Source: Novosphingobium pentaromativorans US6-1 (GTDB lineage: Bacteria; Pseudomonadota; Alphaproteobacteria; Sphingomonadales; Sphingomonadaceae). From it: a DNA stretch of 64,000 nt. The first letter of the stretch is position 1, and every line of letters starts with the position of its first letter. The position numbers were made by a program, and so were the translations under genes. A model generated the notes under the pieces. It made no database searches. It was not told where the DNA came from and saw only the letters and a program-made list of their open reading frames with translations. The stretch spans positions 2,001,501-2,065,500 of the forward strand of contig NZ_CP009291.1 in assembly GCF_000767465.1 (NCBI RefSeq), given 5' to 3'. Positions 7,925-62,684 of this stretch are shown piece by piece.

Positions 7925-7938
7925 AACAGATACCTCTT
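7925..7938. promoter_or_regulatory. putative regulon box A (AACAGATACCTCTT)
   Basis: Matches the core AGATACCTC of the recurring near-palindrome TTGAGRTAYCTCAA (9 of 14 positions). It lies in the 91-bp gap between the divergent hydratase and MFS genes, so it could control both. It is one of the weaker copies. Confidence 0.5.
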
Positions 7939-7984
7939 TGGGTAACAACTCTGCAATCGAAAAGAAAGGGATGAGACGGATCAC

Positions 7985-9400
7985 ATGGAGCGAATTGACA
8001 TAGGTGGAGGCGCGCAGCACGCGGGGCTGGCGAAGCGCCATCCCAAGGCCATTCTCGCGCTTGCGATCCTGACCCTGTTCACGATCCTGTCCTACGCGGA
8101 TCGCATGGTGATTGTCCTGCTGGTCGACCCGATCCGCCTCGACCTGGGGATCGACGACGTCCAGGTCAGCCTGCTCACGGGCGTTGCCTTCGCACTGTGC
8201 TTCGGCCTTGCCAGCCTGCCGCTGGCATGGGTGGCGGATCGCTATTCGCGGCGGTGGGTGATCTATGGCGGGGTGACCGTCTGGTCGCTGGCTACCGCGG
8301 CTGGCGGGATCGCCAACGGCTTTGGCGAACTATTCATGGCGCGGTTCTTCGTCGGGGTTGGCGAAGCGGCACTGGCTCCCGCCGCCTTTGCGATGATCCC
8401 CGACCTGTTTCCAAAGAAGCAGGTCGCCCGGGCGACCGGCATCCTGGCAAGCGCGGCAGCGCTGGGCGGCGGCATGGCGATCCTCGGCGGCGGGTTCCTG
8501 GTCAGCGCCACCGAAGCCGTGGGCACCGCGGTACTGCCCCTGGCCGGCGAAACACGGCCCTGGCAGATGGTATTCCTGATCCTGGGCCTGCCCGGACTGG
8601 CATTGGCGCTACTGACCTTCCTGCTACCGGGGCGCACTAGCCCGCGCACACTGCCGCACACGGGCACCGAGAATTTCAATGCGCCGGCGCTGGCGGAAAG
8701 CGGGCCCGACATAGCGCCTTCGGCCACCGACGCGCTTCCAGCCAGCTACCTGTCATGGCTGAAGCAGAACTGGCTGTTCGTCGGCGGGCTATCGATAGGG
8801 TGCAGCGCACTGGCAGCCCTTGCCTATGGACTTACGAGCTGGACCCCGACCTACCTTTCCCGCGTTTTCGGACTGTCGATGGCGGAAGTGGGCGTAACGC
8901 TCGGGTTGGTACAGATGCTCTGCGGACTTGTCGGATATATCGGCGGCGGCACGCTGATCGACTGGATGGAGGCGCGCGGCATCCGCAATGCGCCGCATCG
9001 GTACCTGATGTTCGCCTCTATCGTTGCCATGGTGGCAGCGGTCGGCGGGTTCTATTTCGCGGGAAGCATCGCGGTCGCAATGGTGTTCATCGGCATCTAT
9101 CACCTGGCCGCCCCGTTCAACAGCCCAATGGTCGTCGCCATGCAGAAAGGGGCTCCCGCTGCCTTCCGCGGACAGGCCATTGCCCTGACCACGATGATCG
9201 CCACGCTGATCGGACTGCTGGCCGGCCCTACGGCCATGGCGCTGTTTACCGAGGACGTCTTCGGCGATCCGGTCAAGGTTGGCTGGTCGGTGGCCAGCGT
9301 CGGACTGGTCTGCGGCGTCGTGGCATTCGTCAGCCTCGCCATCAGCTATGGCCCGGCACTGCGCGCCCGCGAGGCGCTCGACGAGGCCGGGGAAGGCTGA
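7985..9400 (+). CDS. MFS transporter
   Basis: A 471-residue inner-membrane transporter of the major facilitator superfamily with about 12 hydrophobic segments. The loop 2-3 motif appears as LAWVADRYSRRWV, and a matching GGGTLIDWMEARG-like loop follows in the second half. It resembles the anion/organic acid (spinster-like) MFS branch. A central polar loop at about residues 215-255 separates the two six-helix halves. It is divergent from the hydratase/lyase operon across a shared regulatory box, so uptake of the substrate of this region is a reasonable guess. It ends at a strong terminator. Confidence 0.88.
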   Translation: MERIDIGGGAQHAGLAKRHPKAILALAILTLFTILSYADRMVIVLLVDPIRLDLGIDDVQVSLLTGVAFALCFGLASLPLAWVADRYSRRWVIYGGVTVWSLATAAGGIANGFGELFMARFFVGVGEAALAPAAFAMIPDLFPKKQVARATGILASAAALGGGMAILGGGFLVSATEAVGTAVLPLAGETRPWQMVFLILGLPGLALALLTFLLPGRTSPRTLPHTGTENFNAPALAESGPDIAPSATDALPASYLSWLKQNWLFVGGLSIGCSALAALAYGLTSWTPTYLSRVFGLSMAEVGVTLGLVQMLCGLVGYIGGGTLIDWMEARGIRNAPHRYLMFASIVAMVAAVGGFYFAGSIAVAMVFIGIYHLAAPFNSPMVVAMQKGAPAAFRGQAIALTTMIATLIGLLAGPTAMALFTEDVFGDPVKVGWSVASVGLVCGVVAFVSLAISYGPALRAREALDEAGEG

Positions 9401-9419
9401 TCGGTCCCGACCGACAAAG

Positions 9420-9454
9420 AAAAAGGGCCGGATCTTCGCGATCCGGCCCTTTTT
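9420..9454. terminator. bidirectional intrinsic terminator
   Basis: A perfect 15-bp inverted repeat: AAAAAGGGCCGGATC (9420-9434), loop TTCGC, and GATCCGGCCCTTTTT (9440-9454). The stem is GC-rich with an A-tract on one side and a T-tract on the other, so it can stop transcription in both directions. It lies between the convergent MFS (ends 9400) and VOC (ends 9477) genes. Confidence 0.92.
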
Positions 9455-14370: not shown

Positions 14371-14473
14371 GGCCGACAGGAGGGGACACTACAGCCGCGA
14401 AGCGATTTGCGCGATGGCCTCGCAGTCCGCTAAGCTGGTCCCAACCATCCTGCCGGTTGCTCACAAAGACACA

Positions 14474-14487
14474 TTCAGGTAACTTAA
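14474..14487. promoter_or_regulatory. putative regulon box B2 (TTCAGGTAACTTAA)
   Basis: Eleven of 14 positions agree with TTGAGRTAYCTCAA. It lies about 100 bp upstream of the reductase start at 14370, in AT-rich promoter-like DNA. Confidence 0.55.
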
Positions 14488-14549
14488 TCAATAGGCGTTA
14501 TGCGAAGTCACCGCACGAAGTCTGGAAACTTCATTGCATTACAATCATT

Positions 14550-14563
14550 TTGAGGTATCGGAA
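14550..14563. promoter_or_regulatory. putative regulon box B (TTGAGGTATCGGAA)
   Basis: Twelve of 14 positions agree with the box consensus. It lies about 140 bp upstream of the thiolase start and 76 bp from box B2. Confidence 0.6.
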
Positions 14564-14700
14564 AAGATCACTCGGCGACACGCTCGACAGATAGACCTCG
14601 AGTAGGGACGAAGCGCTGCACGACAGCGTTGGCGCCCGGCCCGCGGGCAATCGGACATATTGTGAAGCCGCGCGTCACCAAGGAAGAGGAAATAACGGGT

Positions 14701-22116: not shown

Positions 22117-22137
22117 CGCCTGAAATGACTCTCCCAA

Positions 22138-22151
22138 TTGAGGTATATGTT
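22138..22151. promoter_or_regulatory. putative regulon box C (TTGAGGTATATGTT)
   Basis: Ten of 14 positions match the consensus and the left half-site is perfect. It lies 22 bp upstream of the ligase start at 22116. It is almost identical to box D at 25209. Confidence 0.6.
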
Positions 22152-22389
22152 TTCTTAGCAACACAATCCCGCCGGGTCGAGTGCCGATTATGTCGCCGGC
22201 GTCCGAATTTGCCCGCCCAGCGTCCCCGGAGCCCGGCGACGGGCACGCCACGAATATATGCGCCGCCCCATGGTGGCAGTCATTGCGATATTTGATTAGA
22301 TGCGACAGGTATATGCCACGAGCCGTCCTGCAACGGGCGCGGCAACACGATCACGATTACCTTCACGAAACCGCAATTGGTGAGAGACT

Positions 22390-25134: not shown

Positions 25135-25208
25135 GCCGCGGTTCCTCTTCATTCTCTTGGTATGTCTGGTAGCGGCCCGATTGAGTTTCCTCAATAGCGG
25201 AAAGACAA

Positions 25209-25222
25209 TTGAGGTATCTGTT
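25209..25222. promoter_or_regulatory. putative regulon box D (TTGAGGTATCTGTT)
   Basis: Eleven of 14 positions match the consensus. It lies midway between the divergent crotonase (25134) and AtuA-like (25269) starts, so it could act on both. It shares 13 of 14 bases with box C. Confidence 0.65.
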
Positions 25223-25268
25223 ATTGGACAAATGCCCTCACGGTGCTAGAAAGCACAAGGGAGAGGCA

Positions 25269-31430: not shown

Positions 31431-31467
31431 GCGCTTACTCCCCCTCGACATTCAGGAAGATCGTATA

Positions 31468-31481
31468 TTGAGTTACCTCAA
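31468..31481. promoter_or_regulatory. putative regulon box E (TTGAGTTACCTCAA)
   Basis: Thirteen of 14 positions match, one of the two best copies, with both arms TTGAG/CTCAA perfect. It lies 38 bp upstream of the crotonase start at 31430 and overlaps the last codons of the DUF2156-type gene. Confidence 0.75.
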
Positions 31482-32389
31482 ACAGGCAAGCCCCTAATCA
31501 CCCGATGCTTGGGCTGGATGCGCGACGGACCGTAGGCGCGCTTCGACTGGGCAAGTCCGGCAATACCCAGATCCTGCTCGAAGTTGAGCCATTGTGCGCC
31601 GCAGCGCGCAGCCCGGGCGGCATAACTGGCGAACATCCAGGGATAGGCGTGCGAATGGGCGCGCCGCCCCTTGGCGAAATGAACGATGCGGGCATTGCCC
31701 GAGACGCTGGCGAGCAGGAAGGCGACCGGCTTCCCCCCCGCCCTCACGAGTCCGCCTGCCAGTCCCAGCCAGCCGGCGCCGGCGATCGCTTCGCGGCATT
31801 CGGCAATATCGGTCTGTTCGGCCGTTCTGGTTATGTCGCGCGACCAGCCGTCCAACACTTCGAGCGCAGCATCGGCAAGGCCCTCGTGCCAGTCCTCGAA
31901 GGTCGGCGCATGTTCGATAGCATAGCTTCGCGCCTGCGAGCGCCGGGACTTTGCCGACGAAAGCGTCGCCATTGCCTCGGCACGGAACCAGTAGTCGCTG
32001 TCGGCATCGCGGTGAAGGACGTGCCGCCCCAATCGCCGAGCCAGATCCGGGCCGTCCTCACCGTAGGGATAGAGACAGTCGATCCCGCTTGCAAACAGGG
32101 CTTCGACCATGTCCCGATCGGGCGCGGACCCGGGCGCGGACAAGGGCGCGGACAAGGGCGCGGACAAGGGGAGGGCATGAACCCTTCCATCGTAGGTCCG
32201 CCCGCGGATATGCGGAACCGGATCGTCCATCCACCGATATTCATGCACGGCGCGAAACAGCCAAAGGTTCGCAAAGGCATATTCCGCCGGGCTGAACGCA
32301 CCCGTTGGAAAAGTCGCGCGGATGCGCTCCGCATCGCTCTTTTCCAGCGGTCTTCCCGCCACTTTTCCTTCAACGCGCGCGATCAACAC
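31478..32389 (-). CDS. DUF2156 / phosphatidylglycerol lysyltransferase C-terminal domain-like protein
   Basis: A 303-residue soluble protein with a GNAT-like fold. The C-terminal part (HSHAYPWMFASYAARAARCG and WLNFEQDLGIAGLAQSKRAYGPSRIQPKHR) resembles the catalytic domain of lysyl-phosphatidylglycerol synthases and DUF2156 proteins. The membrane part of those enzymes is absent. Aminoacyl or acyl transfer is possible but unproven. A 12-bp tandem repeat in the gene encodes a Leu-Ser-Ala-Pro array. The apparent start is GTG at 32389 with no strong ribosome site, so the start is uncertain. Its place in a beta-oxidation operon is unexpected. Confidence 0.7.
   Translation of the reverse strand: MLIARVEGKVAGRPLEKSDAERIRATFPTGAFSPAEYAFANLWLFRAVHEYRWMDDPVPHIRGRTYDGRVHALPLSAPLSAPLSAPGSAPDRDMVEALFASGIDCLYPYGEDGPDLARRLGRHVLHRDADSDYWFRAEAMATLSSAKSRRSQARSYAIEHAPTFEDWHEGLADAALEVLDGWSRDITRTAEQTDIAECREAIAGAGWLGLAGGLVRAGGKPVAFLLASVSGNARIVHFAKGRRAHSHAYPWMFASYAARAARCGAQWLNFEQDLGIAGLAQSKRAYGPSRIQPKHRVIRGLPV
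32120..32167. repeat. 12-bp tandem repeat, four units
   Basis: GGGCGCGGACAA repeats: the first unit ends CC instead of AA, and units 2-4 are identical (32132-32167). The length keeps frame and encodes the LSAPLSAPLSAP-type array in the overlapping gene. Copy number could vary by slippage. Confidence 0.9.
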
Positions 32390-33761: not shown

Positions 33762-33846
33762 TCAGCTTCCTCAAAATCTTTCTTCTCCTGCACCGGCAGG
33801 CGGTACGCTCCGCCCAACTCCCGCAGGACCACAGACACAGTCTTAT

Positions 33847-33860
33847 TTGAGATACCTATT
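33847..33860. promoter_or_regulatory. putative regulon box F (TTGAGATACCTATT)
   Basis: Eleven of 14 positions match, with the left half-site perfect. It lies 86 bp upstream of the dehydratase start at 33761, in the divergent gap to the SDR gene at 33974. Confidence 0.65.
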
Positions 33861-33954
33861 TTAATCAAGAGGCCGTCCGCCATCGCTATCCGCGAAATTC
33901 ACACGTGGCGCCCCGAGGGCAGGTGAAGCAATTCATATTGTGCCATTCCCCTTA

Positions 33955-33968
33955 TTGAGATACAGGAA
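33955..33968. promoter_or_regulatory. putative regulon box G (TTGAGATACAGGAA)
   Basis: Eleven of 14 positions match. It is the exact reverse complement of box L at 50336-50349. It lies only 6 bp before the SDR start and includes its ribosome site (AGGA), so binding here could block transcription or translation initiation. Confidence 0.7.
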
Positions 33969-33973
33969 TGCAA

Positions 33974-39769: not shown

Positions 39770-39817
39770 TGGCTTTGTCGATGCCGCTGCCATTCGCTGT
39801 TGCGCCCTGTTGCGCAA

Positions 39818-39831
39818 TTAAGGTATTTCAA
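39818..39831. promoter_or_regulatory. putative regulon box H (TTAAGGTATTTCAA)
   Basis: Twelve of 14 positions match, and the two departures are symmetric (TTA/TAA-like arms), which supports a dimer site. It lies 33 bp upstream of the Rieske oxygenase start. Confidence 0.7.
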
Positions 39832-39863
39832 TAGCCAGCACCTCGAGATGCATTAGAATAGGG

Positions 39864-40976
39864 ATGCCGAACGCCATGACGCCTGAATCCAAAGACAACG
39901 CTTCCGCACAACGCACAGCGACCGACGCCTATCTGCCCGAAATGTCGGGTGAGGAACTGATCGCCTGGCGCATGGCGGAAATGACGGACCGGCCCGATCC
40001 CGATGCGCGCAACATGCAGGACGAGTTTGCGATGGGCTGGTACTGCGTGGCCTATTCGGACGAACTGGCGGTCGGCGAGGTCAAGCCGATCCGCTATTTC
40101 GGTCAGGACCTGGCCCTGTGGCGCGGCGAGGATGGCGAGGCTCGCGTGATCGACGCCTACTGTGCGCATTACGGTGCGAACATGGCGGTGGGCGGCAAAG
40201 TGCACGGCAACCTGCTGGAATGCCCTTTCCACGCCTGGCGATGGGATGAAACGGGCGCCTGCAAGGAAATCCCCTATTCGCGCGCGGTTCCGCCCAAGGC
40301 CAAGAAGGCGGATTGCGTTCCCGCCTGGCCAACGGCCGAAGTGAACGGCATGGTCATGGTCTGGTACCATTCCGAACGTGCCGAGCCCCAGTGGCAGCCG
40401 GTCAGGTTCGAGGACGCTTACAACGACGATTGGACAGAGTTTCGCAAGTACGAATGGCACGTCTATTCCGCGCTGGAAAACATCGCCGACAATGCGGTCG
40501 ACGTAAGCCACTTCAAATACGTGCACGGCGCCATGACCGTTCCGGAATACGAGTTCGAGTTCGATGGCATCGCGCGCAAGATCACCTCGCATCTGACGAT
40601 GCAAACTCCGCGCGGCGAGGTGGCCGGCAAGATCGAATCGGTGAACTACGGCCCCGGCCAGGGCTTTGTGCGCTTTTCGGGCATCACGGATACCATCATG
40701 TTCAGCGCGACATGTCCGGTCGAGCGCGACAAGACGCACAATCGCATGGCCTTCAGCCAACCCAAGGCGAATGTCGACGGTCCAATGGCAGGGCTGACCC
40801 GCGCCATCATCAAGAACATCACGCGCCAGTTCGATCAGGACAAGGTGATCCTCGATCGTCACATCCGCGTGGAACCACCGATGGTCTGCGAAGGCGACGG
40901 CCCCTTCGGACGCAACCGCATCTATTATAGCCAGTTCTATCCCAGCCGGAACAAGGACAGGCCAGCGGCCGCCTGA
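39864..40976 (+). CDS. KshA-like Rieske non-heme iron oxygenase
   Basis: A 370-residue oxygenase component. The Rieske 2Fe-2S ligands are Cys100, His102, Cys120 and His123 (C-x-H-x17-C-x2-H). The mononuclear iron site is DNAVDVSHFKYVHG, with Asp213 as bridge and His216/His221 as ligands. The stretch CPFHAWRWDETGACKEIPYS and the VDxxHF motif resemble 3-ketosteroid 9-alpha-hydroxylase (KshA) and cholesterol 7-desaturase. Hydroxylation of a steroid-like ring is a reasonable inference. No ferredoxin or reductase partner is encoded in the window. ATG at 39876 is an alternative start. A SnoaL-like gene follows after 24 bp. Confidence 0.88.
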   Translation: MPNAMTPESKDNASAQRTATDAYLPEMSGEELIAWRMAEMTDRPDPDARNMQDEFAMGWYCVAYSDELAVGEVKPIRYFGQDLALWRGEDGEARVIDAYCAHYGANMAVGGKVHGNLLECPFHAWRWDETGACKEIPYSRAVPPKAKKADCVPAWPTAEVNGMVMVWYHSERAEPQWQPVRFEDAYNDDWTEFRKYEWHVYSALENIADNAVDVSHFKYVHGAMTVPEYEFEFDGIARKITSHLTMQTPRGEVAGKIESVNYGPGQGFVRFSGITDTIMFSATCPVERDKTHNRMAFSQPKANVDGPMAGLTRAIIKNITRQFDQDKVILDRHIRVEPPMVCEGDGPFGRNRIYYSQFYPSRNKDRPAAA

Positions 40977-44721: not shown

Positions 44722-44862
44722 GCGATGCACCCGTTGCGCCGAGTCGCGTTCCTGTCCTTGTCTGGCATTGCTCTCTCCTTAAGCCTTTGCGGCGCAACGG
44801 GGCTCATGCCTCTTATCCAAAGCTTTTCCCGCGGCGGCTTGCCTTCACCCCATCTATCCGAA

Positions 44863-44876
44863 TAGAGGTATCTCAA
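44863..44876. promoter_or_regulatory. putative regulon box I (TAGAGGTATCTCAA)
   Basis: Thirteen of 14 positions match, one of the two best copies. It lies 29 bp upstream of the SDR start and about 140 bp from the divergent MFS start. Confidence 0.75.
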
Positions 44877-44904
44877 ACAAGCATAATCGGACCGAAGGAT
44901 GCCA

Positions 44905-47278: not shown

Positions 47279-47293
47279 GGCTATCCCTTTCTA

Positions 47294-47307
47294 TTCAGGT
47301 ACATCAA
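47294..47307. promoter_or_regulatory. putative regulon box J (TTCAGGTACATCAA)
   Basis: Twelve of 14 positions match. It lies 16 bp upstream of the start of the small beta-rich gene at 47278. Confidence 0.6.
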
Positions 47308-47418
47308 GAGCTTGCTTCAAGACGCCCGGCATCGCAAGACACGATCTCTTCACGCTCCCGCGCGGCGACCGGAAAATCCACTCGTGCGGCCCGATCGCAG
47401 GTGAGTCCTGAATGCCAT

Positions 47419-47445: not shown

Positions 47446-47578
47446 GCACTTTTACTATACTTCCCGCTACACTACACGCTTTACCTTCGCCCGCGTTAGA
47501 GCATAGGGTGAAAGCAAGAGATACACGAGCAGGGAAGGGCGGACATCGGCGGAACGGATGCAAAAGCATTTTCTAGGA

Positions 47579-47592
47579 TTCAGGTACCGCAT
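47579..47592. promoter_or_regulatory. putative regulon box K1 (TTCAGGTACCGCAT)
   Basis: Eleven of 14 positions match. It is the first of a tandem pair sharing the direct repeat CAGGTACCGCA, 17 bp apart (K1 and K2). It lies about 290 bp upstream of the GntR/FCD start. Confidence 0.6.
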
Positions 47593-47595
47593 CAA

Positions 47596-47609
47596 TGCAG
47601 GTACCGCAA
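47596..47609. promoter_or_regulatory. putative regulon box K2 (TGCAGGTACCGCAA)
   Basis: Eleven of 14 positions match; the inner TGC-AGGTACC-GCA is close to a perfect palindrome. It is the second of the tandem pair, and the 17-bp spacing puts the two on nearly opposite faces of the helix. Confidence 0.6.
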
Positions 47610-47878
47610 ATTGTTCGGATCCGTCGACTCGCAGCGATGCAAGCGGTCGCGGCTGATTTGCACGGCGTGGTCTCCCTCGCCATCGGGCATGACCATCGCA
47701 TTTGCGCCAGAATCGCGCCGGTGCCGCGCCGAAGGCTGGTGCACACGTTCGCCAACGGCGTTGAAGACGCTTTTGCATACCCGGCACGATCCGTGCCGAC
47801 GCTGAAGGATCGAAGAACGGCAAGACCGTTGCGTTCGAGTGGCCCTGGCCGCCGAACGAAAGTTTGGAGTGGACACGA

Positions 47879-48664
47879 GTGAGTGAAGTCAAAAGCAAGC
47901 CCCGCAAGATCGGAGGCGCCTCGCTTGTCGATGAGGCCGCCAAGAAATTGCGCATTCTCGCGCTTTCCCGGGAGCATGGGGAGTTCCTAGGCTCCGAGGA
48001 AGAGATGATCGAACGGCTTCAGGTCAGCCGCCCGACCCTGCGGCAGGCATCGGCCCGGGTCGTGCAGGAGAACCTGGTCTCGATCAAGCGCGGCGTGGGC
48101 GGCGGCTATTTCGCGTCGCGCCCCGGTTCGCTGAGCGTCAGCCGGATGGCAGCGCTCTACCTGATGAGCCGCAATGCCGGCCTGTCCGAAACGACGGCGG
48201 CCATGAAGCCGATCCGCGCCGAGCTTGCCATGCGCGCTGCCGCCTGCACGGATGCAGAGCTGCGGGCCAAGCTTCGCAATTTCATCGAGCAACAGACCGC
48301 GGCCTTGTCAGCGTACACCGACTCGGACGAAGACAGCCAAGGCTATCGCGAGTTCCTGCGCAGTGAGCGCGAATTCGGTCAGATTCTCGGTGCGATGAGC
48401 CAGAATTCGGTGTTGATCCTGCTGCTCGAAATTCTCTACGATTTTTCCTCGCAACTGCGCCGTGGACAGGACGTGCTGATCGACCGTCCCGACCGCGTTC
48501 GCACTTATCGCGAGCTGCGCCTGAAGCTGGCAAATACAATCCTCGAGGGCGATGTCGAGATGGCGGAACTGGCAAGCCATCGCTGCTCGACCACGATCGA
48601 TGAATGGATGGACGAGGGCCTGAAGAACACCATGTTTACCGATACGGTCCTCCACGATGACTAA
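47879..48664 (+). CDS. GntR/FadR-type (FCD domain) transcriptional regulator
   Basis: A 261-residue regulator. The N-terminal winged helix (about 20-85) contains GSEEEMIERLQVSRPTLRQ, then ENLVSIKRGVGGGYF for the wing. A C-terminal all-helical FCD-like ligand domain (about 100-240) follows. FCD regulators typically bind an acid or acyl-CoA and release short palindromes. With tandem copies of the 14-bp box upstream, it is the best candidate regulator for the whole cluster. GTG at 47879 has GGAG 9 bases upstream. It overlaps the next gene by 8 bp. Confidence 0.9.
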   Translation: MSEVKSKPRKIGGASLVDEAAKKLRILALSREHGEFLGSEEEMIERLQVSRPTLRQASARVVQENLVSIKRGVGGGYFASRPGSLSVSRMAALYLMSRNAGLSETTAAMKPIRAELAMRAAACTDAELRAKLRNFIEQQTAALSAYTDSDEDSQGYREFLRSEREFGQILGAMSQNSVLILLLEILYDFSSQLRRGQDVLIDRPDRVRTYRELRLKLANTILEGDVEMAELASHRCSTTIDEWMDEGLKNTMFTDTVLHDD

Positions 48665-49466: not shown

Positions 49467-49508
49467 CGGGCGCGGGCCGCATTCAAGAACATCAATTGGA
49501 GAAAGAAT

Positions 49509-50261: not shown

Positions 50262-50335
50262 TCACACCTTCGCGCATGCCTTGATGACATTGCCGATGCG
50301 AAGGCCGAGCAGATGAGGCTTGATCGCGTCGGCAA

Positions 50336-50349
50336 TTCCTGTATCTCAA
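50336..50349. promoter_or_regulatory. putative regulon box L (TTCCTGTATCTCAA)
   Basis: Eleven of 14 positions match. It is the exact reverse complement of box G at 33955-33968. It lies 20 bp upstream of the ligase start at 50370. Confidence 0.7.
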
Positions 50350-50369
50350 TAAGGGGAACAGGATGAGAC

Positions 50370-51890
50370 ATGTCACGACAACTTCACTCCATCATTGCTC
50401 AGGCCCTCGCCGGTGACGGCGAAAAGGTCGCCCTAAGCTACAAAGGCCGCGACATTCGCTGGTCTTATCTGCGCAAGTTCGCCGAAGAGCTAGAGGACCT
50501 GCTGCAGCAGGCTGGGCTTGGCGAAGCGCAGCAGATCGGCTTCGTGCCGCGCAACCGGCCAGCTTTCGCGGCAGCGATGCTGGCGTTGCTGGCCGGTCGC
50601 CGCACTATCGTCATGGCCTATGCCTTCCAGTCTCCCGAAGCGATCGCCGCGGACCTCAGAAAGCTGAACCTGCCCGCCGTGATCGCGGACGAGCAGGACT
50701 GGACAGAGGAAACGCTGGCCGCCCTTTCTCCCGGCGCACTGGCCATTTCGCTTGCATCCGATCTGGATGCGGACGAGCCGGTGAAACTGATCGCCGGAGA
50801 CCTCAAGGCCGACCGTTCGGGTACGGCGCAGCCGACCGCAGAACCCATGGTCGAGATGCTGACCAGCGGCACGACCGGCGCGCCCAAGCGCTCGCCCATG
50901 CGATTCTCCACGATCGAGACGGCAGTCCTGGCGCAAGGCGTGCTCGAACAGGTCGGCACGGACAATGAGGAAGGCGATCCGGGTACGGTCAATTTCCCCC
51001 TCAGCAATATCTCGGGCATCTATTCCTACCTGCCTTATGCGGTGTCGCGCCGCCTGGTGCTGTTTCAGGAAAAGTTCAATCTGGATGACTGGCTGGCCTT
51101 CGTCGACCGCCATCAGCCGACTACGGTAGTCATCCCTCCGGCAGGCGTGCGCATGCTGCTGGACCGAAAGGACGTGCCTGACGATGCGCTGAAAAGCGTG
51201 AAGTACGTGCAGGTCGGCACGGCTGCGGTCGACGTAGATTCGCACAAGGCATTCGAAAAGCGATTCGGCGTGGCGATCCTGCTGTCCTATGGCGCGACCG
51301 AATTCTGCGGCGCGGCCACGACGATGACGGCTGCGCAGTACGAGCAGTTCGGCGAAGCGAAATTCGGCAGCGTCGGCAAGCCGACCGGACAGAACATCGT
51401 CAGGATCGTCGATCCCGAAACGCGTGCTCAGCTGCCCGCAGGCGAAACCGGCCTGATCGAAGTCAAGATTCCCATGCTGGGCGACGATTTCATCCGCACG
51501 ACCGACCTGGGCATGCTGGACGAGGACGGGTTCCTGTTCCATCGCGGCCGTAACGACGGTGTGATCGTGCGGGGCGGCTTCAAGATCATGCCCGGCACGA
51601 TCGAAAGCGTCATCAACCGCATCGAAGGCGTGGCCGTGAGCAGCGTGGTGGGTGCCCCTAACCGGCGGCTGGGCGAAGTGCCCGTTGCCCTGATCGAGAT
51701 GCAGCCGGGCCACGAACCGCTGCCTGCGGCCGAAGTGGAAAAGGCGATTCGCGCTGCACTTCCGGCCACCAACGTGCCGGTGGCCTATCTTTTCCCGACT
51801 GAATTGCCGCGCACCCCTTCGCTGAAGATCGATCTGAAGACGGTGAAGAAAATGGCTGCCGATGCGGTCGATGAAGGAGCGAAGGTGTGA
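50370..51890 (+). CDS. AMP-dependent acyl-CoA ligase (sister of 20614-22116)
   Basis: A 506-residue ANL ligase. It has TSGTTGAPKRSPM, YGATEFCGAA, RTTDLGMLD and GRNDGVIVRGGFKIMPGTIE, ending PRTPSLKIDLKTVKK. The PKRxP P-loop and PRTPSLK terminus match the ligase at 20614, so the two form a distinct pair that may handle related acids. The gene has its own box just upstream and is the first of a four-gene rightward operon with a fused dehydrogenase and a dehydrogenase pair. Its GTGA overlap with the next gene suggests coupling. Confidence 0.9.
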   Translation: MSRQLHSIIAQALAGDGEKVALSYKGRDIRWSYLRKFAEELEDLLQQAGLGEAQQIGFVPRNRPAFAAAMLALLAGRRTIVMAYAFQSPEAIAADLRKLNLPAVIADEQDWTEETLAALSPGALAISLASDLDADEPVKLIAGDLKADRSGTAQPTAEPMVEMLTSGTTGAPKRSPMRFSTIETAVLAQGVLEQVGTDNEEGDPGTVNFPLSNISGIYSYLPYAVSRRLVLFQEKFNLDDWLAFVDRHQPTTVVIPPAGVRMLLDRKDVPDDALKSVKYVQVGTAAVDVDSHKAFEKRFGVAILLSYGATEFCGAATTMTAAQYEQFGEAKFGSVGKPTGQNIVRIVDPETRAQLPAGETGLIEVKIPMLGDDFIRTTDLGMLDEDGFLFHRGRNDGVIVRGGFKIMPGTIESVINRIEGVAVSSVVGAPNRRLGEVPVALIEMQPGHEPLPAAEVEKAIRAALPATNVPVAYLFPTELPRTPSLKIDLKTVKKMAADAVDEGAKV

Positions 51891-54070
51891 ACCTTTCCCT
51901 TTCCGAAGACCAGACCATCCTAGCCGACGAATTCCGCAAGTTCTTTGCCAGCGAAAGCGCGATGGAGCGTGTACGCGCCGCCGAAGAGAAGATGGGCGGC
52001 TTCGATCCGGAATTGTGGCGCTCGCTCGGCGAGATGGGCGCGCTTGCCATGCGCATCCCCGGCGAAGACGGCTTCGGGTTGTTCGAGGCCGGGCTGGTGG
52101 CCTTCGAAGCCGGTCGGCAATTGGCCAGCGGCCCTCTGGTGGAAGCCATCCTCGCGGCAAGGCTGCTTGCGCAACTTGGGGGACCTGAGGACCTCATCGC
52201 CCTGGCCTCTACCGGCGAGGCCGTCGTGACGCTGGCGCTGCACGAGGCCGCCGTCGGCGCGCAGATCGTTCCGGGCGGCGCGGTGGCCGACGCCATCCTC
52301 GTGCTGTCGGGCGACGAGGTCCGCCTTGTTCGCGAGATTGTCGGAAAGGCTCCCGACAATCTCGGCGGTCAGCCGCTTGCGCCCATCGACCTGTCCGACA
52401 AGGGCGAAATCCTTGCATCGGACGGCGATGCACGCGCGGCATTTCTTGCCGGGCTTGAGGAATGGAAGATCCTCACCGCCGCCTGGATGGCAGGCGCCGG
52501 GCTTCGCGCCCTTGAGCTGGCGGGAGAATACGCCAAGGAACGCGAGCAATTCGGCCGCGCCATTGCCACTTTCCAGGCCGTTGCCCATCCACTGGCCGAC
52601 ATGGCCGCGGAAATGACCGGAGCCGACCTGGCCTGGCGCTGGGCCGTTGCTGAAGTCGCTCAGGGCGGCGGCAAGGCGGCAGCCGCCGCGCCAATGGCAT
52701 TCTGGTTTGCCGCACAGGCCTCTTCACAGGCCGTGTACCGGGCCCAGCATACATTCGGCGGATATGGCCTCGCGCTCGAATACGATATCCAGCTCTATGT
52801 CCGCCGCGCGCGGGCAGCCGCCGCGATCCTTGGCGATCCGCGCGATCAGTTGATCACGGCCGGCCGCCGCTTGTGGCTGGACGAAACCGCAGCCCTGCCC
52901 GAAACCGGCCACCCGGGCATCGAATTCGGTTACGGCGAAGCGGCAGAGGCTTTCGCGCAGGAAACCCGAGAATTCTTTCAGCGCGAACTGACCGACGAAT
53001 ATCGCGCGAACGCACATTTCTCCTATGACGGCCACGATTGGGACCTGAACCGGAAAATGGGCGAAGCGCGCCTCCTGTTTCCCAGCTGGCCCGAGGAATT
53101 CGGCGGGCGCGGTCTTGACGATCTCGCCACCGCCGCCGCGCTGCAGGTGTGGGAAGACGAAGGCGTCACCTCCCACTCGCAATATGTCTCGAACCTTGTC
53201 GGCCATTCGCTCATCCATTTCGGATCGGACGAAGTGAAGCGCGACATCGTGCCGCGCCTCGCCAAGGGCGAAATCATCTCGTGCCTCGGCTTCTCGGAAC
53301 CCCATTCTGGCAGTGACGTCTTCGCAGCCAAGACGCGAGCCCGAAAGGACGGCGACGACTGGATCATCGACGGGCAGAAGATGTGGACGAGCGGCGCCAA
53401 CCTGGCCCACCACGCCTTCCTGCTCGCGCGCACCGATCCCGACGCGCCCAAGCACAAGGGCATGACCGTGTTTCTCGTGCCGCTCGACGATCCGGGCGTG
53501 GAAATTCATCCCGTCCACACCTTCCAGGACGAGCGGACCAATGCGACGTTTTATGAAAACGTGCGCGTTCCCGATTCCTATCGCATCGGCCCGGTCAATG
53601 GCGGGCTGCAGGTGATGGGCTTCGCCCTGATGATCGAGCAAGGCGGCGGCGGTTTCGTCGGGCCGCATCGCCACGCAGTGGAATCCGCCGTCGAATGGGC
53701 GCGCGAAGCCAGCCGCAGCGGCCGCAAGGCGATCGAGAACCCGCGCGTGCTCGAACGCATCGCCGCGGCGGCGACGCGCAACACGGTTTCCTACCTACTG
53801 TACTGGCGCGCCTTATGGCTGAAGACCCAGGGCACAGACCGCGCGGCCGGACCGATGAGCAAGCTCTACGGCTCGGAAGCGCTTCTCAAGGACGCGGTCG
53901 ACCTGTTCGAACTCGCAGCTCCCGACACTCTGCTGCGCGGCAAGCATGGCGCACGGCGGCTTGAACATGAAATGCGGCACGCATCCGTTACCACGGTCTA
54001 TGGCGGCACCAGCGAGGTCCACCGCAGCCAGGTGGCGGAAGCCTTCTTCGGCCTGCCGAAAAGCCGCTGA
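51887..54070 (+). CDS. fused two-domain acyl-CoA dehydrogenase (FadE34-like)
   Basis: A 727-residue protein made of two complete dehydrogenase units. The first (about 1-340) is beta-type, ending GGYGLALEYDIQLYVRRAR. The second (about 350-727) is alpha-type, with CLGFSEPHSGSDVFAAKT and WIIDGQKMWTSGAN, and YGGTSEVHRS in place of the MCAD-type glutamate; LMIEQGGGGF offers the alternative base. Single-chain fusions of this kind (FadE34/ChsE3) act on steroid side-chain CoA thioesters. It starts at GTG overlapping the ligase stop by 4 bp and precedes an alpha/beta pair. Confidence 0.9.
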   Translation: MNLSLSEDQTILADEFRKFFASESAMERVRAAEEKMGGFDPELWRSLGEMGALAMRIPGEDGFGLFEAGLVAFEAGRQLASGPLVEAILAARLLAQLGGPEDLIALASTGEAVVTLALHEAAVGAQIVPGGAVADAILVLSGDEVRLVREIVGKAPDNLGGQPLAPIDLSDKGEILASDGDARAAFLAGLEEWKILTAAWMAGAGLRALELAGEYAKEREQFGRAIATFQAVAHPLADMAAEMTGADLAWRWAVAEVAQGGGKAAAAAPMAFWFAAQASSQAVYRAQHTFGGYGLALEYDIQLYVRRARAAAAILGDPRDQLITAGRRLWLDETAALPETGHPGIEFGYGEAAEAFAQETREFFQRELTDEYRANAHFSYDGHDWDLNRKMGEARLLFPSWPEEFGGRGLDDLATAAALQVWEDEGVTSHSQYVSNLVGHSLIHFGSDEVKRDIVPRLAKGEIISCLGFSEPHSGSDVFAAKTRARKDGDDWIIDGQKMWTSGANLAHHAFLLARTDPDAPKHKGMTVFLVPLDDPGVEIHPVHTFQDERTNATFYENVRVPDSYRIGPVNGGLQVMGFALMIEQGGGGFVGPHRHAVESAVEWAREASRSGRKAIENPRVLERIAAAATRNTVSYLLYWRALWLKTQGTDRAAGPMSKLYGSEALLKDAVDLFELAAPDTLLRGKHGARRLEHEMRHASVTTVYGGTSEVHRSQVAEAFFGLPKSR

Positions 54071-54082
54071 GGACACGACACA

Positions 54083-55261
54083 ATGCGCCTGATAGAAGAC
54101 CCCAAACTTGACCGCTTCCGGGCTGAATGCCGCGACTGGCTGCAGGACAACGTCCCCACGGCCAAGCGACCGCCCGACGGGCTTGCCCTGCGCGAATACG
54201 ATCTGGCCTGGCAACGCACCCAGTACGAAGGGGGCTGGGCCGGTGTTTCCTGGCCAAAGGAATATGGCGGGCGCGGCCTGTCGGTGCTGGAACAGCTGAT
54301 CTGGCACGAGGAATACGCCCGCGCCGGCGCTCCGCCATCGGCTTCGATGTTCGTCGCGCTCAGCCATGCCGGGCCCACTTTGATCGTTCAGGGCTCCGAC
54401 GAACAGAAGCAGCGCTATCTGCCCAAGATCCTCAAGGGCGAGGAAAACTGGTGTCAGGGCTTCTCCGAACCGGGCGCGGGATCGGACCTCGCCTCGCTCA
54501 AGACGCGCGGCGTAGTCGACGGCGATCATCTCGTCGTCACGGGCACGAAGATCTGGACCAGCTATGCCGAGGGCGCCAACCGGCAGGAACTGCTCGTGCG
54601 GACCGATCCCGAGCAGCCGCGCCATCGCGGGCTAACGTGGATCGTGTGCGACATGGACTTGCCCGGCATCGACATCCGCCCGATCACCGCCATGTCAGGC
54701 GTAACCCATTTCGCGCAGGTCTTCTACGACGAGGTCCGCATCCCGCTTGCCAACGTGGTAGGCGAGATCAACAAGGGCTGGGCCATCGCGATGACCACGC
54801 TGGGCTTCGAACGCGGCACCGGCACCATTGCCCACCAGATCGAGCTGGCCAATGGGGTCGAACGCCTGATCGAGGTAGCTGGCGAAACGACTGACCCGGA
54901 AACCGGACGCTCCCTGCTGGACGACGATGCCGTTGCCGCCAGGCTGGCGGGGCTTCGGGCAGAAGTGATGGCGCTGCGTTCGCTGACCGTTGCCTCGGTT
55001 TCGCGCGGAATGCGCGAAGAGGTTCCGGGCGCGGAAGGCAATATCCCCGCTCTCTATTTCGGAGAGCTGACCCGGCGCGTGAACGGCGCGGCGCTCGAAA
55101 TACTGGGCCCCGCGGCACTGGCGCGCGACGGCGAGCATAACTGGCCGCTGCATTACCTGGAATCGTTCAAGTGGGCGATCGGCGGAGGCACATCGGAAAT
55201 TCGCCGCAACGTGATCGGCGAACGCGTGCTTGGCCTGCCCCGTGGACCCCGAGCCATATGA
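54083..55261 (+). CDS. acyl-CoA dehydrogenase, large/alpha-type subunit
   Basis: A 392-residue FAD-dependent dehydrogenase. It shows WCQGFSEPGAGSDLASLKTRG and LVVTGTKIWTSY. The probable catalytic glutamate lies in TLGFERGTGT, with IGGGTSEIRRN at the MCAD position. It follows the fused dehydrogenase by 12 bp and overlaps the next gene by 4 bp (ATGA), which encodes a beta-type partner. This is the third alpha/beta pair of the window. The succession of three different desaturase forms in one region suggests stepwise shortening of a side chain or ring fragment. Confidence 0.92.
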   Translation: MRLIEDPKLDRFRAECRDWLQDNVPTAKRPPDGLALREYDLAWQRTQYEGGWAGVSWPKEYGGRGLSVLEQLIWHEEYARAGAPPSASMFVALSHAGPTLIVQGSDEQKQRYLPKILKGEENWCQGFSEPGAGSDLASLKTRGVVDGDHLVVTGTKIWTSYAEGANRQELLVRTDPEQPRHRGLTWIVCDMDLPGIDIRPITAMSGVTHFAQVFYDEVRIPLANVVGEINKGWAIAMTTLGFERGTGTIAHQIELANGVERLIEVAGETTDPETGRSLLDDDAVAARLAGLRAEVMALRSLTVASVSRGMREEVPGAEGNIPALYFGELTRRVNGAALEILGPAALARDGEHNWPLHYLESFKWAIGGGTSEIRRNVIGERVLGLPRGPRAI

Positions 55262-56229
55262 GCCGCGACATGATAATCGACCTTCACCCGACAGAAGACC
55301 AGCAGATGATTGCCGACTCCATCGGCGCGATGCTGGCCGATACGCTTCCGGTCTCGCGCCTGCGCGAGAAGGATGCCTGGGCCGCCGCACCCGAAGTGGC
55401 GATGTGGAAGGACTTTGCCGAACTCGGCCTTTTCGCAATGGCCCTGCCGGAGGATGAGGGCGGTGCCGGCTATGGCCTTTGCGAAGAACTGGTCGCAGCG
55501 CGCGAACTGGGCCGCGTCCTGGCATCGCCATCGCTGCTTGCGCAGATTGCCGCAGTCCATCTTGCCTCGGGCGACGACCGCGCCGCGCTCGTGTCCGGAG
55601 ACAAGCGGGCCGCTTTCGCAACTCCCGGTGTGGATGGCGCGCTCTACCTCTATGACGGAGTCGGAGCCGACTTTGTCGTCGTGCTCGACAGCGGCGTTTC
55701 GCTGCACAAGGCAGATGGGTTCGACTGGTCCGAGGCGGTCGCGATGGACGAGACGGTCTCGATCAGGCGCGCGTCCCCGGCCCCCGCGCCCGGGAACCGC
55801 GACGCCATGGCGGACCGGGTTTCGCTGCTGATCAGCGCAGCACTGGCAGGCATGGCGCAAGCGGCAACCGAACTTGCCGTCGAATATGCCGGTCAACGCG
55901 AACAGTTCGGCCAACCCATCGGGTCTTTCCAGGCGATCAAGCACGCGCTGGCCGACATGCGGGTGCGCGCCGATGCGGCAGATTCACAATCGCGCGTGGC
56001 CGCCGTGGCCTTTGGCCTGGGCGGGAACGACCGGCGCGAAGTGGCCGCTGCGCGCTGGCTGGCCGGCAATGCGGCCTTGGAAAACGCCAGGGCAGGCATC
56101 CAGGTACACGGCGGCATGGGTTTCACCGCCGAGTGCGACGCACATCTGTTCCTGAAGCGCGCCCACCTGTTCGCAAGTCTGGGCAGCAGCCGTCGAGGCG
56201 AGGAGCGCAGGCTGATCGCTTCAGCCTGA
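55258..56229 (+). CDS. acyl-CoA dehydrogenase, small/beta-type subunit
   Basis: A 323-residue dehydrogenase-fold protein, shorter than the other two beta-type subunits (354 and 369). It ends with IQVHGGMGFTAECDAHLFLKRAH, the family motif. It begins at an ATGA overlap with the alpha gene; a second in-frame ATG lies 12 bp later. It completes the operon and converges on the SDR gene at 56281. It probably forms a heterotetramer with the preceding product. Confidence 0.9.
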   Translation: MSRDMIIDLHPTEDQQMIADSIGAMLADTLPVSRLREKDAWAAAPEVAMWKDFAELGLFAMALPEDEGGAGYGLCEELVAARELGRVLASPSLLAQIAAVHLASGDDRAALVSGDKRAAFATPGVDGALYLYDGVGADFVVVLDSGVSLHKADGFDWSEAVAMDETVSIRRASPAPAPGNRDAMADRVSLLISAALAGMAQAATELAVEYAGQREQFGQPIGSFQAIKHALADMRVRADAADSQSRVAAVAFGLGGNDRREVAAARWLAGNAALENARAGIQVHGGMGFTAECDAHLFLKRAHLFASLGSSRRGEERRLIASA

Positions 56230-57087: not shown

Positions 57088-57989
57088 GTGTTTCCCGATG
57101 CAAAAGCCGGGGCAGCATCGGCCCAGATGGCGCTGCAAGCTTCGACGAGCGAATCGGCTTCAGCCAGCAATTGCGCCCCCCTGACAGGCTCGTGCGGATA
57201 GCTCACGCCGATGTTGTAAAGCACGCGCCGGTGGCGGTCGAAGATCGGCACCGAAAGCATCCGCACGCTGTACTCACCGTCCGGGTGGATTTCCGGCGGT
57301 TGGTATAGGCCGTTGTCCATCGCCGCGAGCAGCATGGCCAGGCTCGCCTGCGCACCGGCCCCTTCCTCCACGTCGGCAAGATGACGGGTGAAGGCGCCAT
57401 GTTCGGCCGAGCGAAGCGAAACCAGAAACCCGCGGTGGCGCAGAAGCTGCAGCGCACGCTCGTGCCCCTCGCGCGCGGATTGCGACACGACCTGGCCCTG
57501 CACCTGGTCCCGGGGCGCGCACCATGCCGCGATATCCTCCTCGTCCGACCAGGCGATGAACAATCCGCCCAAAGGTGCGCGCAGTGGAACGCGCTGCCCG
57601 ACGCGAAGGCTGGTGCTCATCCCCGCCTGCACGGCGAACCGCGCCACACCGATGATGTCGCTGCCAGCCCGGGCAGTCAGCAAAGTCTCACGCCCGCTGC
57701 GCGCCGCCCAGGCGGATGCCACCTGCCGCGCCTGTTCAAGCAGCGGATCGTGCCGTGCCGCCGCCTCTCCGATCGCCACCAGTGCCGGGGCGAGTCGGTA
57801 GGTCTTGCGTTCCGGATCGCGCAACAGATAGCCGCGCTGCATCATCACGTTCAGGATCGCATGCAGCGAGGAAGCATTCGTCCCGGTGAACCGCATGATA
57901 TCCGACAGGGTGAATTTTTCCGCAGGCTGAGCCGCCATCAGGTCGATGATCTCAAGCGCTCTCAATGCGGATAGGGCGGGCCTGCTCAT
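57084..57989 (-). CDS. IclR-family transcriptional regulator
   Basis: A 301-residue regulator. An N-terminal winged helix (about 5-65) with FTLSDIMRFTGTNASSLHAIL precedes a GAF-like effector domain (about 80-255). IclR regulators act as dimers or tetramers and respond to small acids or aromatic compounds. A 26-bp perfect inverted repeat lies 11 bp upstream of its start, so autoregulation together with control of the divergent Baeyer-Villiger gene is likely. ATG at 57989 is used; an in-frame TTG at 57995 is possible. It forms an operon with the SDR gene. Confidence 0.92.
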   Translation of the reverse strand: MSRPALSALRALEIIDLMAAQPAEKFTLSDIMRFTGTNASSLHAILNVMMQRGYLLRDPERKTYRLAPALVAIGEAAARHDPLLEQARQVASAWAARSGRETLLTARAGSDIIGVARFAVQAGMSTSLRVGQRVPLRAPLGGLFIAWSDEEDIAAWCAPRDQVQGQVVSQSAREGHERALQLLRHRGFLVSLRSAEHGAFTRHLADVEEGAGAQASLAMLLAAMDNGLYQPPEIHPDGEYSVRMLSVPIFDRHRRVLYNIGVSYPHEPVRGAQLLAEADSLVEACSAIWADAAPAFASGNT

Positions 57990-57999
57990 GCCCAAAAGA

Positions 58000-58071: not shown

Positions 58072-58073
58072 GA

Positions 58074-58087
58074 TAGAGGTACAGGAT
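58074..58087. promoter_or_regulatory. putative regulon box M (TAGAGGTACAGGAT)
   Basis: Nine of 14 positions match. It resembles box G. It lies 20 bp upstream of the Baeyer-Villiger start, just outside the 26-bp inverted repeat, so two regulators may act here. Confidence 0.5.
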
Positions 58088-58106
58088 TTCAGAGAGAGGC
58101 GACCTC

Positions 58107-60808: not shown

Positions 60809-60848
60809 CCGCCTGCGAACAGGCTCGCCAACCGACCTTCGCTGCTGC

Positions 60849-62504
60849 ATGATTGACCGGATGTCCGAAAAGAACCCGAAAAACGCCGAGACTTCGCCAT
60901 TCAAGGTGCCCTTCTTCCGGACGCTTTGGGTGACCATGCTGATTTCAGCCTTCGGGACCAACATCCAGGGGGTTGGCGCGGCATGGCTGATGACCGAGCT
61001 TTCCGGTTCGGCGTCGATGGTCGCGCTCGTGCAGACTTCGATGGTGCTGCCTCTCATGCTGTTTTCTCTGCTGGCGGGCGCGCTGGCCGACGGTTTCGAG
61101 CGGCGCACGGTGATGATCGCCGCCCAGCTTTCGATGCTGGTCGCTTCGCTCGGGCTGATCGCCTGCGCCGTGCTCGACTTGCTGACCCCATCGATCCTGC
61201 TCGCCTTCACCTTCATTATCGGCAGCGGCATGGCATTCAATGCGCCGGCCTCGCAGGCAGCCATCGGCGAGATAGTTCCCCGCCCTGCACTTCCCGGGGC
61301 GGTCGCCTACATGTCCATGACGTTCAACATCGGACGCTCGCTCGGCCCGGCGCTTGGCGGCATCATCGTTGGCGCATTGGGCGCGGTTGGCGCCTTTGCC
61401 TTCAACGCCTTCACCTACCTTCCGCTGACTGCCGTCCTGCTTCGCTGGAAGCCCCCAGAAACCGACACGTCCCTGCCGCGCGAACGCATCTTTCACGCCA
61501 TGGCCGCGGGCATCCACTACACCCGCATGTCACCCGACATCCTGCGAGTGATACCGCGCGCAGCCCTGTTCGGGTTCGGCGTTGCGGCCGTTTCGGGTCT
61601 CATGCCGGTCATTGCCCGTGAAGAGCTTGGCGGCGGACCGCTTACCTACGGCCTGCTGCTGGGCGCCTACGGCATCGGCTCTGTCGCCGCGGGATTCGTC
61701 GTGCGACCGCTACTCGAACGCCTGGGCAGCGAGAAGGTGGTTCTGCTCGCGTCGCTGTGCGCGATGGCCGGCACGACAACCATCGCCTTCAGCCCCTATA
61801 TCGCCTTGTCGATGCTGGCCCTCACGTTCGTGGGGATCGGCTGGGTGCTGGCGCTTTCCAGCTGCAACACCGTGGTCCAGCTGGCAGCTCCGCGCTGGGT
61901 GGTGGCGCGCACGCTGTCGATCTACCAGATGGGGGCGTTCGGCGCGATGGCGATCGGTGCAGCCACGTTCGGCACGCTGGCCGATCACATCGGCGTTCCC
62001 TACGCCCTGCTGGCAGCTGCGGGGGTTCACCTTGCCTCTATCCTGATCGGCCGCGTCCTGCCGATCGTCGATGTCGAACGCGATCTCGACCCGCACGACT
62101 GGAACGAACCAGACCTTGCCCTGCCGATCGAGGGCCGCAGCGGCCCCATCGTGATCAGCATCGCCTACGAAATCGACAGGGACGACGTTCCGCGTTTCCT
62201 CGCCCTCATGACCGAACGCCGGCGAGTTCGGCGCAGGGACGGCGCGCACGGCTGGACCTTGATGCGCGATCTCAATGCGCCGGATCGCTGGGTCGAGCGT
62301 TACGATGTTGCAACTTGGCACGACTATATCCGCCACAACAAGCGACACACCGTGGCCGATACCGAGAACTGGAGCGAGATCCTCGCCCTGCATCGTGGGG
62401 ACGGGCGGCCTCGCGTGACCCGGTTGATCGAGCGACAGACCGCCAATCTGCCCGGCGCCCGCCTGCCTTCGGCACGCGAAATGAGTGGAATCGCCCAGCC
62501 CTAG
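60849..62504 (+). CDS. MFS transporter with C-terminal dimeric alpha/beta-barrel domain (MFS_3)
   Basis: A 551-residue protein. The first about 410 residues form an MFS exporter-like membrane domain with LAGALADGFERRTVM at the loop 2-3 position, similar to EntS-type proteins. The last about 130 residues (PIVISIAYEIDRDDVPRFLALM onwards) are a soluble antibiotic-biosynthesis-monooxygenase-like barrel typical of MFS_3 proteins. An exporter role is more likely than uptake. ATG at 60849 is chosen; ATG at 60861 is equally possible because neither has a clear ribosome site. It closes the BVMO operon. Confidence 0.88.
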   Translation: MIDRMSEKNPKNAETSPFKVPFFRTLWVTMLISAFGTNIQGVGAAWLMTELSGSASMVALVQTSMVLPLMLFSLLAGALADGFERRTVMIAAQLSMLVASLGLIACAVLDLLTPSILLAFTFIIGSGMAFNAPASQAAIGEIVPRPALPGAVAYMSMTFNIGRSLGPALGGIIVGALGAVGAFAFNAFTYLPLTAVLLRWKPPETDTSLPRERIFHAMAAGIHYTRMSPDILRVIPRAALFGFGVAAVSGLMPVIAREELGGGPLTYGLLLGAYGIGSVAAGFVVRPLLERLGSEKVVLLASLCAMAGTTTIAFSPYIALSMLALTFVGIGWVLALSSCNTVVQLAAPRWVVARTLSIYQMGAFGAMAIGAATFGTLADHIGVPYALLAAAGVHLASILIGRVLPIVDVERDLDPHDWNEPDLALPIEGRSGPIVISIAYEIDRDDVPRFLALMTERRRVRRRDGAHGWTLMRDLNAPDRWVERYDVATWHDYIRHNKRHTVADTENWSEILALHRGDGRPRVTRLIERQTANLPGARLPSAREMSGIAQP

Positions 62505-62670
62505 TCCTCGTCGGCCCCGATCTGCGTCCTGGGGCCCTTCGGCCTTGGACCCTGTCGGCCCTCATCGACGTCCGGACTCGGCGGCGCAAAGGCAAATGAA
62601 CCGCGCCGTCGCGGGAGGCGGCCCTACAATGATATCAAATTCGGGCTTGCCTGATATGCCTGGCGCCGGG

Positions 62671-62684
62671 TAAAGGTATCTCAA
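62671..62684. promoter_or_regulatory. putative regulon box N (TAAAGGTATCTCAA)
   Basis: Twelve of 14 positions match. It lies 25 bp upstream of the second Baeyer-Villiger start at 62710, in a 205-bp gap after the MFS gene. Confidence 0.7.

Follow-up and report, generated by a model that had tools for sequence, protein, structure and literature searches.

A repeated palindrome in front of catabolic operons of Novosphingobium pentaromativorans US6-1 and its predicted GntR/FCD reader

A palindrome in front of catabolic operons

The window analysed here is a 64,000-nt stretch of Novosphingobium pentaromativorans US6-1 that carries a large catabolic gene cluster and, in its gaps, many copies of a short palindrome. 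The operons at these gaps encode acyl-CoA dehydrogenases (one of them fused), hydratases, AMP-ligases, CoA-transferases, a KshA-like Rieske oxygenase and an FMO, together with an OYE-like reductase, an AtuA protein, a thiolase with a ChsH2-like partner, and MFS transporters. From what is known of these families, the set resembles steroid-type, CoA-dependent catabolism; similar genes occur on Novosphingobium and Sphingobium plasmids and do not fix the substrate. Three clear regulators lie in the cluster: an AraC protein (15961-16983), a GntR/FCD protein (47864..48664, plus strand, likely start GTG at 47879) and an IclR protein (57084-57995). We refer to the window plus the 4.7 kb beyond it as cluster A. 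Start codons in our gene list were picked by eye and by Shine-Dalgarno match.

A preliminary description of this DNA had listed 16 copies of a 14-bp near-palindrome, TTGAGRTAYCTCAA, and all 16 are present at their positions. With up to three mismatches the 14-mer matches the window 15 times, compared to a mean of 2.22 and a maximum of 7 in 100 dinucleotide shuffles; these matches comprise 13 of the 16 listed sites plus 25181 and 33761, while listed sites 7925, 22138 and 58074 carry more than three mismatches. The near-palindromic form holds, and the length needs revision. The two columns flanking the 14-mer, unused in that description, hold A and T, respectively, in 69% of cases each, with the background taken as 18%, so the signal extends one base to each side and the palindrome is 16 bp long. 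Matrix refinement yielded the consensus AWWnAKRTAYMTnWWT, outside which the flanking bases carry little information. In leave-one-out scoring each listed site reaches 15.1-22.7 bits. The refined matrix, trained on the window and 20 further stretches and thus including the data it scores, places 17 window positions above 15 bits and 1 in nine control stretches (L033-L041, 180 kb). A sequence-only covariance model, R1, built from 55 16-mers, was too insensitive (one site each in the own genome and in six loci, read on both strands) and was replaced by IUPAC patterns and matrices.

Several details of the first account change at this resolution. The central TA, called invariant, is mostly so and gives way to TT at 25180. 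All listed positions are real, and the list is incomplete: it missed the good sites at 25180 and 22282 as well as weaker ones at 49481 and, inside a gene, at 9922. The absence of copies from positions 1-4000 is borne out at 10 bits or more, with one 9.1-bit position at 866. The proposed comparison with shuffled gaps gives 15 sites observed against a mean of 0.05 with a matrix trained partly on the same sites; a matrix from other genomes only finds 7 gap sites of at least 10 bits, compared to a shuffled mean of 0.18 and a maximum of 2 (300 shuffles). That a repeated palindrome stands in front of the catabolic operons is confirmed.

The copies had been placed in gaps or at gene edges, and with the refined matrix 16 noncoding sites and 1 coding site score at least 15 bits in a window of which noncoding DNA makes up 7.7%. 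Their position upstream of starts holds for every listed site except 62670, which is located between two convergent genes and has no start codon within 400 bp. The nearest start codon lies at a median of 39 bp, within 45 bp for 11 of 17 sites and 84-136 bp away for four. By our own gap classification, 8 of 9 divergent gaps of the cluster contain a site of at least 13 bits, compared to 1 of 9 convergent gaps; two gaps in this tally depend on an uncertain open reading frame (ORF) at 46970.

Distribution in the genome and in relatives

Across the 5.46-Mb genome the exact 16-mer matches 10 times and its reversed control once. Three of the exact sites fall in cluster A, six in a second cluster, B (C1:2.601-2.638 Mb), and one at an ArsR-methyltransferase/MTHFR operon. 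Allowing one mismatch yields 45 sites versus 18 for the control, distributed as 15 in A, 12 in B, 3 at C1:3.561-3.562 Mb and 15 elsewhere. At three mismatches or fewer the 14-mer is barely enriched (175 matches versus 154 for the reversed pattern), which tells against the looser form of the observation: genome-wide specificity is obtained only with the 16-bp pattern. The preliminary description had proposed one regulon of about 55 kb. A single regulon over the catabolic region is well supported; its extent is larger than stated. Sites of cluster A reach to approximately C1:2,070,215, 4.7 kb past the window end, and about 530 kb away they recur at C1:2,601,176-2,643,818 in cluster B, whose genes encode a TonB receptor, short-chain dehydrogenases/reductases (SDRs) and two Rieske proteins (L027 and L028, C1:2600001-2640000). 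Exact sites number 0-4 in 36 same-genus genomes, compared to 0-3 for the control; the regulon is hence not a general feature of the genus.

The exact site at C1:2098998 (ATAAAGATATCTTTAT) was counted as a match and set aside from the regulon. It is a perfect palindrome at the start of the ArsR-methyltransferase gene that precedes the MTHFR gene (L026:13488-14525; C1:2098988-2100025), and this 16-mer, which also turns up in a number of other Sphingomonadales, probably belongs to another regulator. The three one-mismatch sites at C1:3561325-3562183 (L042), which we call cluster C, lie within 0.9 kb around an amidohydrolase gene, approximately 32 kb from a second GntR gene. In cluster B, a site at L027:2946-2961 overlaps the start codon of a TetR gene (L027:2370-2951).

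Two relatives, Erythrobacter litoralis SNB-035 (L135, G061) and an Altererythrobacter metagenome-assembled genome (MAG; L136, G062), encode orthologs of the GntR/FCD protein with 72% identity. Their catabolic cluster forms one block of about 100 kb, syntenic with the window over long stretches at identities of 44-92%. Homologs of several cluster B genes lie inside this same block, with sites, and clusters A and B were therefore likely split during evolution. The contig carrying the GntR gene and the cluster holds 9 of 9 exact sites in Erythrobacter and 8 of 9 in Altererythrobacter, and 19 of 26 and 22 of 28 sites, respectively, at one mismatch. Enrichment in orthologous gaps, which the preliminary description had proposed as a check, is evident: of 12 window gaps that hold a site of at least 15 bits, 11 have such a site in Altererythrobacter and 9 in Erythrobacter, where two more have theirs at the head of the rearranged operon. 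This 12-gap set counts in 31452-31477 and leaves out the two weak sites of 49467-49508 and 47578. A 70%-identical ortholog occurs in Sphingobium sp. AS12, with sites before KshA and near the ligase.

Along the window, the predicted operators (given as 16-bp intervals without strand) follow the operon boundaries. The site at 7924..7939 (21.4 bits) lies in the divergent MaoC/MFS gap, whose orthologous gap carries a site in both relatives; the predicted regulated operon at 5387..7893 (minus strand; Pfam) encodes MaoC, a thiolase that we take to be Ltp2-like, and a ChsH2-like OB protein. The divergent gap between the OYE-like reductase and thiolase genes holds two sites, 14473..14488 (22.5 bits; a site stands upstream of the OYE gene in Altererythrobacter) and 14549..14564 (16.0 bits). 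Pairs also occupy the AMP-ligase/enoyl-CoA hydratase gap, at 22137..22152 (22.8 bits; both relatives have a site at this end of the ligase gene) and at 22282..22297 (17.0 bits; newly found), and the enoyl-CoA hydratase/AtuA gap, at 25180..25195 (18.7 bits; newly found, in a gap that has a site in both relatives) and 25208..25223 (20.6 bits). The operon of hydratase, lipocalin and acyl-CoA dehydrogenase genes is preceded by 31467..31482 (21.6 bits; same gap in both relatives). In the MaoC2/SDR gap, 33846..33861 (17.6 bits) and 33954..33969 (21.0 bits) form a pair about 100 bp apart that is present in all three clusters.

Further along, 39817..39832 (22.0 bits) lies 31 bp before the predicted regulated gene for the KshA-like Rieske oxygenase (39864..40976, plus strand; Pfam KshA_C and Rieske), and 44862..44877 (23.3 bits) lies in an MFS/SDR gap; both have counterparts in both relatives. 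The site at 47293..47308 (19.3 bits) stands before a 102-amino-acid ORF (46970-47278, minus strand), an uncertain call without a Pfam match, and two weak tandem sites at 47578 and 47595 (47578..47610; 14.0 and 11.3 bits) lie upstream of the GntR gene. At 50335..50350 (21.0 bits), 19 bp before the predicted regulated operon of AMP-ligase and acyl-CoA dehydrogenase genes (50370..56229, plus strand; Pfam), all 16 letters are the same in the window and both relatives. The IclR/FMO gap contains 58073..58088 (18.3 bits; 16.7 bits in Altererythrobacter). The orphan site between convergent genes, 62670..62685 (19.9 bits), is followed in both relatives by minus-strand genes, one of them KshA-like, that are absent from the window; the site therefore looks like the relic of a deletion.

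The candidate regulator and its rivals

The 47864-48664 protein combines an N-terminal GntR winged helix (PF00392; 30.4 bits, cut-off 27) with a C-terminal, all-helical FCD domain (PF07729; 34.1 bits, cut-off 24.3). Scanning a genome collection with a GntR alignment yielded at least 80 homologous loci, and the 80 listed form the set used here. From the upstream DNA of distant homologs (46 of 52 regions, with 6 dropped as short or duplicate), and without any window data, we learned a motif de novo. The result, WAAnAGRTAYCTnTTW, is the same palindrome. Applied to the window, this independent matrix places listed sites at all of its top 8 positions and at 11 of its top 12, and scores the 25208 site at 20.0 bits. 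With a genome-trained matrix, 44 of the 80 homologs have a site of at least 13 bits in the 350 bp upstream, compared to 2.2% of 14,228 random windows from the same loci; within 150 bp and with GC-matched windows the values are 41 of 80 and 3.5% of 5,518. Among whole loci of 2-4 kb, such sites occur in 6 of 11 for GntR, 4 of 29 for IclR, 2 of 29 for AraC and 1 of 11 for TetR. Computation thus supports four points: the motif itself, where it lies, that it is conserved and that it goes with the protein family. Judged by the motif upstream of homologs and by the clusters of the relatives, the GntR/FCD protein, which the preliminary description had named for testing, is the best candidate regulator.

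We therefore propose, with a probability of roughly 0.83, that the palindrome is the operator of this protein, most likely a repressor of around twelve operons in cluster A and, in trans, of cluster B. A number of observations weigh against this assignment. With the independent matrix, listed sites 47579 and 47294 score 4.8 and 4.0 bits, and 33955, 47596 and 50336 fall outside its top 30. An upstream site of at least 13 bits is found in 8 of 27 nearer homologs compared to 36 of 53 distant ones, and the three closest orthologs (70-72% identity, among the matches listed) lack a site of 12 bits or more within 350 bp upstream; nearer homologs often carry an ATAAAG-GAYA-CTCAAT centre or no clear site. 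The window GntR gene itself is preceded by two weak sites at a distance of 268-285 bp. Most of the IclR, AraC and TetR control homologs are more distant than those of GntR, 18 of the 45 genomic sites with up to one mismatch lie outside clusters A and B, and Sphingobium sp. AS12 has one exact site genome-wide with weak enrichment (30 versus 13).

The same family also offers another candidate reader. A paralog 43% identical to the window protein, GntR2 (L126:3968-4774; C1:3593968-3594774), could own or share some sites, and we consider it unlikely that it reads most of them or that both proteins share them. GntR2 has a variant site of its own, ATTGAGTAATCTTTTT (16.5 bits, 160 bp upstream), and a further TAAT-centred site in its surroundings. 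Against it, its neighbourhood favours another centre, and in the blocks of the two relatives the sites are present, the best match of the GntR gene is the window protein (72%), and GntR2 is in no listed best match, the list giving the best query per place. That IclR or AraC reads the sites is very improbable even though the clusters of both relatives have kept the two genes: sites are rare near their homologs, as the locus counts above indicate, the IclR/FMO gap has no site of at least 15 bits in Erythrobacter, and the AraC/SnoaL gap has none of at least 13 bits in the window and none of at least 15 in Erythrobacter, though it carries one of 22.1 bits in Altererythrobacter. AraC proteins moreover bind direct repeats, according to the accessible part of PMC12882949.

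Two further explanations concern the sites rather than the reader. The gaps are AT-rich and the loose 14-mer is hardly enriched genome-wide, as expected of a chance AT-rich pattern or a mobile repeat, and yet such an origin is scarcely credible: shuffled gaps give means of 0.05-0.46 compared to 7-17 sites observed, depending on matrix and threshold, the flanks carry little information, the sites recur in orthologous gaps, and the independent motif from distant homologs contradicts it. The same protein acting on the same operator as an activator is rather unlikely. The four sites 84-136 bp from the nearest start codon would suit activation, whereas the closeness of the sites to start codons overall (median 39 bp; 11 of 17 within 45 bp) suits a repressor, and for two distant homologs (G024, G033) about 10 bp separate the end of the site from the ATG. 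Most FCD regulators act as repressors.

Two further regulators were considered as readers and rejected. The TetR protein of cluster B has no listed best match in the blocks of the two relatives, and sites occur in 1 of its 11 homolog loci; a LysR protein (L025:5179-6066) likewise has no listed best match there.

In four distant homolog loci (L167, L169, L202, L208), two sites with a spacing of 53-64 bp lie upstream of the regulator gene at a distance of 2-3 kb, and because of these distal pairs the regulators probably control a neighbouring gene too. In a Hyphomonadaceae MAG, the GntR stretch at L150:8001-8744 contains a stop codon or sequencing error and has a 22.6-bit site upstream.

Proposed mechanism and relation to known systems

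We infer that this very GntR/FCD protein binds as a dimer, whose two winged-helix domains would read the half-sites of AWWnAKRTAYMTnWWT. Seated near the promoter or in the 5′ leader, the dimer would most likely repress some twelve operons of a supercluster for CoA-dependent, steroid-like catabolism, and the same protein would repress the second cluster, about 530 kb away, in trans. An intermediate formed in the pathway, which may be a CoA thioester, would probably trigger release.

An AlphaFold2 model of the protein (mean pLDDT 87.3) displays seven helices after the linker. The accessible part of PMC7797058 describes six helices in the VanR group and an additional one in the FadR group, and on this basis the seven helices point to the FadR group. 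Among the 50 fold matches listed by Foldseek, with query TM-scores of 0.33-0.61 and sequence identities of 14-20%, the nearest solved fold is NanR by E-value and CGL2915, called LldR in that part of PMC7797058, by TM-score; FadR entries rank below NanR. The same source describes a metal-binding FCD subgroup (LldR, TM0439, Atu1419) with Asp or Asn and three His in the pocket. In alignments to NanR and 6az6 our protein has Glu at the metal-site Asp and a non-His residue at the first His (E-x-x-x-non-His in place of D-x-x-x-H), and an Arg seems to stand opposite the second metal-site His, beside a gap in the NanR sequence. The Glu and non-His residues hint that the ligand is bound without a metal.

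Some recognition helices track the operator centre. All six loci with the helix VSRATLRQA (L138, L140-L143, L159; one related group) have ATAAAG-GAYA-CTCAAT upstream, and homologs with SRPTLRQ mostly have RTAY-like centres or no clear site; the helix reading failed or came from another frame in 7 of 80 loci. The paralog at C1:3593986 has the SRPTLRQ helix and yet goes with a TAAT centre, so an operator code is at best partial. The pairing of SRATLRQ with GAYA may mark a specificity switch. More tentatively, and with somewhat less than even confidence, we suggest that a sphingomonad FCD clade comprises undescribed master switches of CoA-dependent, steroid-like catabolism, in which one protein would read about 27 operators over two clusters approximately 530 kb apart (one ~100-kb block in relatives), with SRPTLRQ paired with an RTAY centre and SRATLRQ with a GAYA centre.

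The FadR group (FadR, LldR, NanR) shares with our protein the GntR and FCD domains, the seven helices and a palindromic operator, here predicted; it differs in the low identity to the fold matches listed (14-20%) and in the replaced metal-site Asp and His. FadR itself binds long-chain acyl-CoA and controls fatty-acid genes. To our knowledge, AWWnAKRTAYMTnWWT is unlike the FadR or PdhR consensus. One regulator for a large steroid gene set is familiar from KstR of actinobacteria, a TetR-family protein of another phylum whose operator is not known to be related to the palindrome described here.

In sphingomonads, the control of steroid-like catabolism is so far represented, in the accessible parts of the sources, by EdcR and several unproven candidates. 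EdcR, the repressor of the estradiol cluster of Caenibius tardaugens, is a catabolic repressor of a sphingomonad steroid cluster with a palindrome overlapping promoters, and its proposed palindrome, TnnCnnTACnAnTnGTAnnGnnA, differs from our consensus when the two strings are compared. For bsd I and II, the bile-salt degradation clusters of C. tardaugens, the accessible part of PMC12882949 proposes operators of AraC and TetR proteins, which belong to families other than GntR; the sequences given for TetR, ATAGGGCCATTG and GCATGCGGGATGC, differ from the palindrome here. The preliminary description knew of no operator with this consensus in sphingomonads, and we found none in the open-access literature among the matches listed, where an earlier description is possible. 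The accessible parts of PMC8700777, PMC12239570, PMC12882949, PMC5343134 and PMC7797058 do not describe this operator or regulator, and a word search with six operator cores returned no fitting title or abstract opening among the matches listed. As far as seen, this is a new regulon with a known kind of regulator.

The proposal ties a catabolic supercluster to a single regulator with a single operator, and the extent of the pathway should therefore be readable from genomes by a motif scan. The 80 related regulators, many with a likely operator, form a set for studying how FCD proteins choose their DNA.

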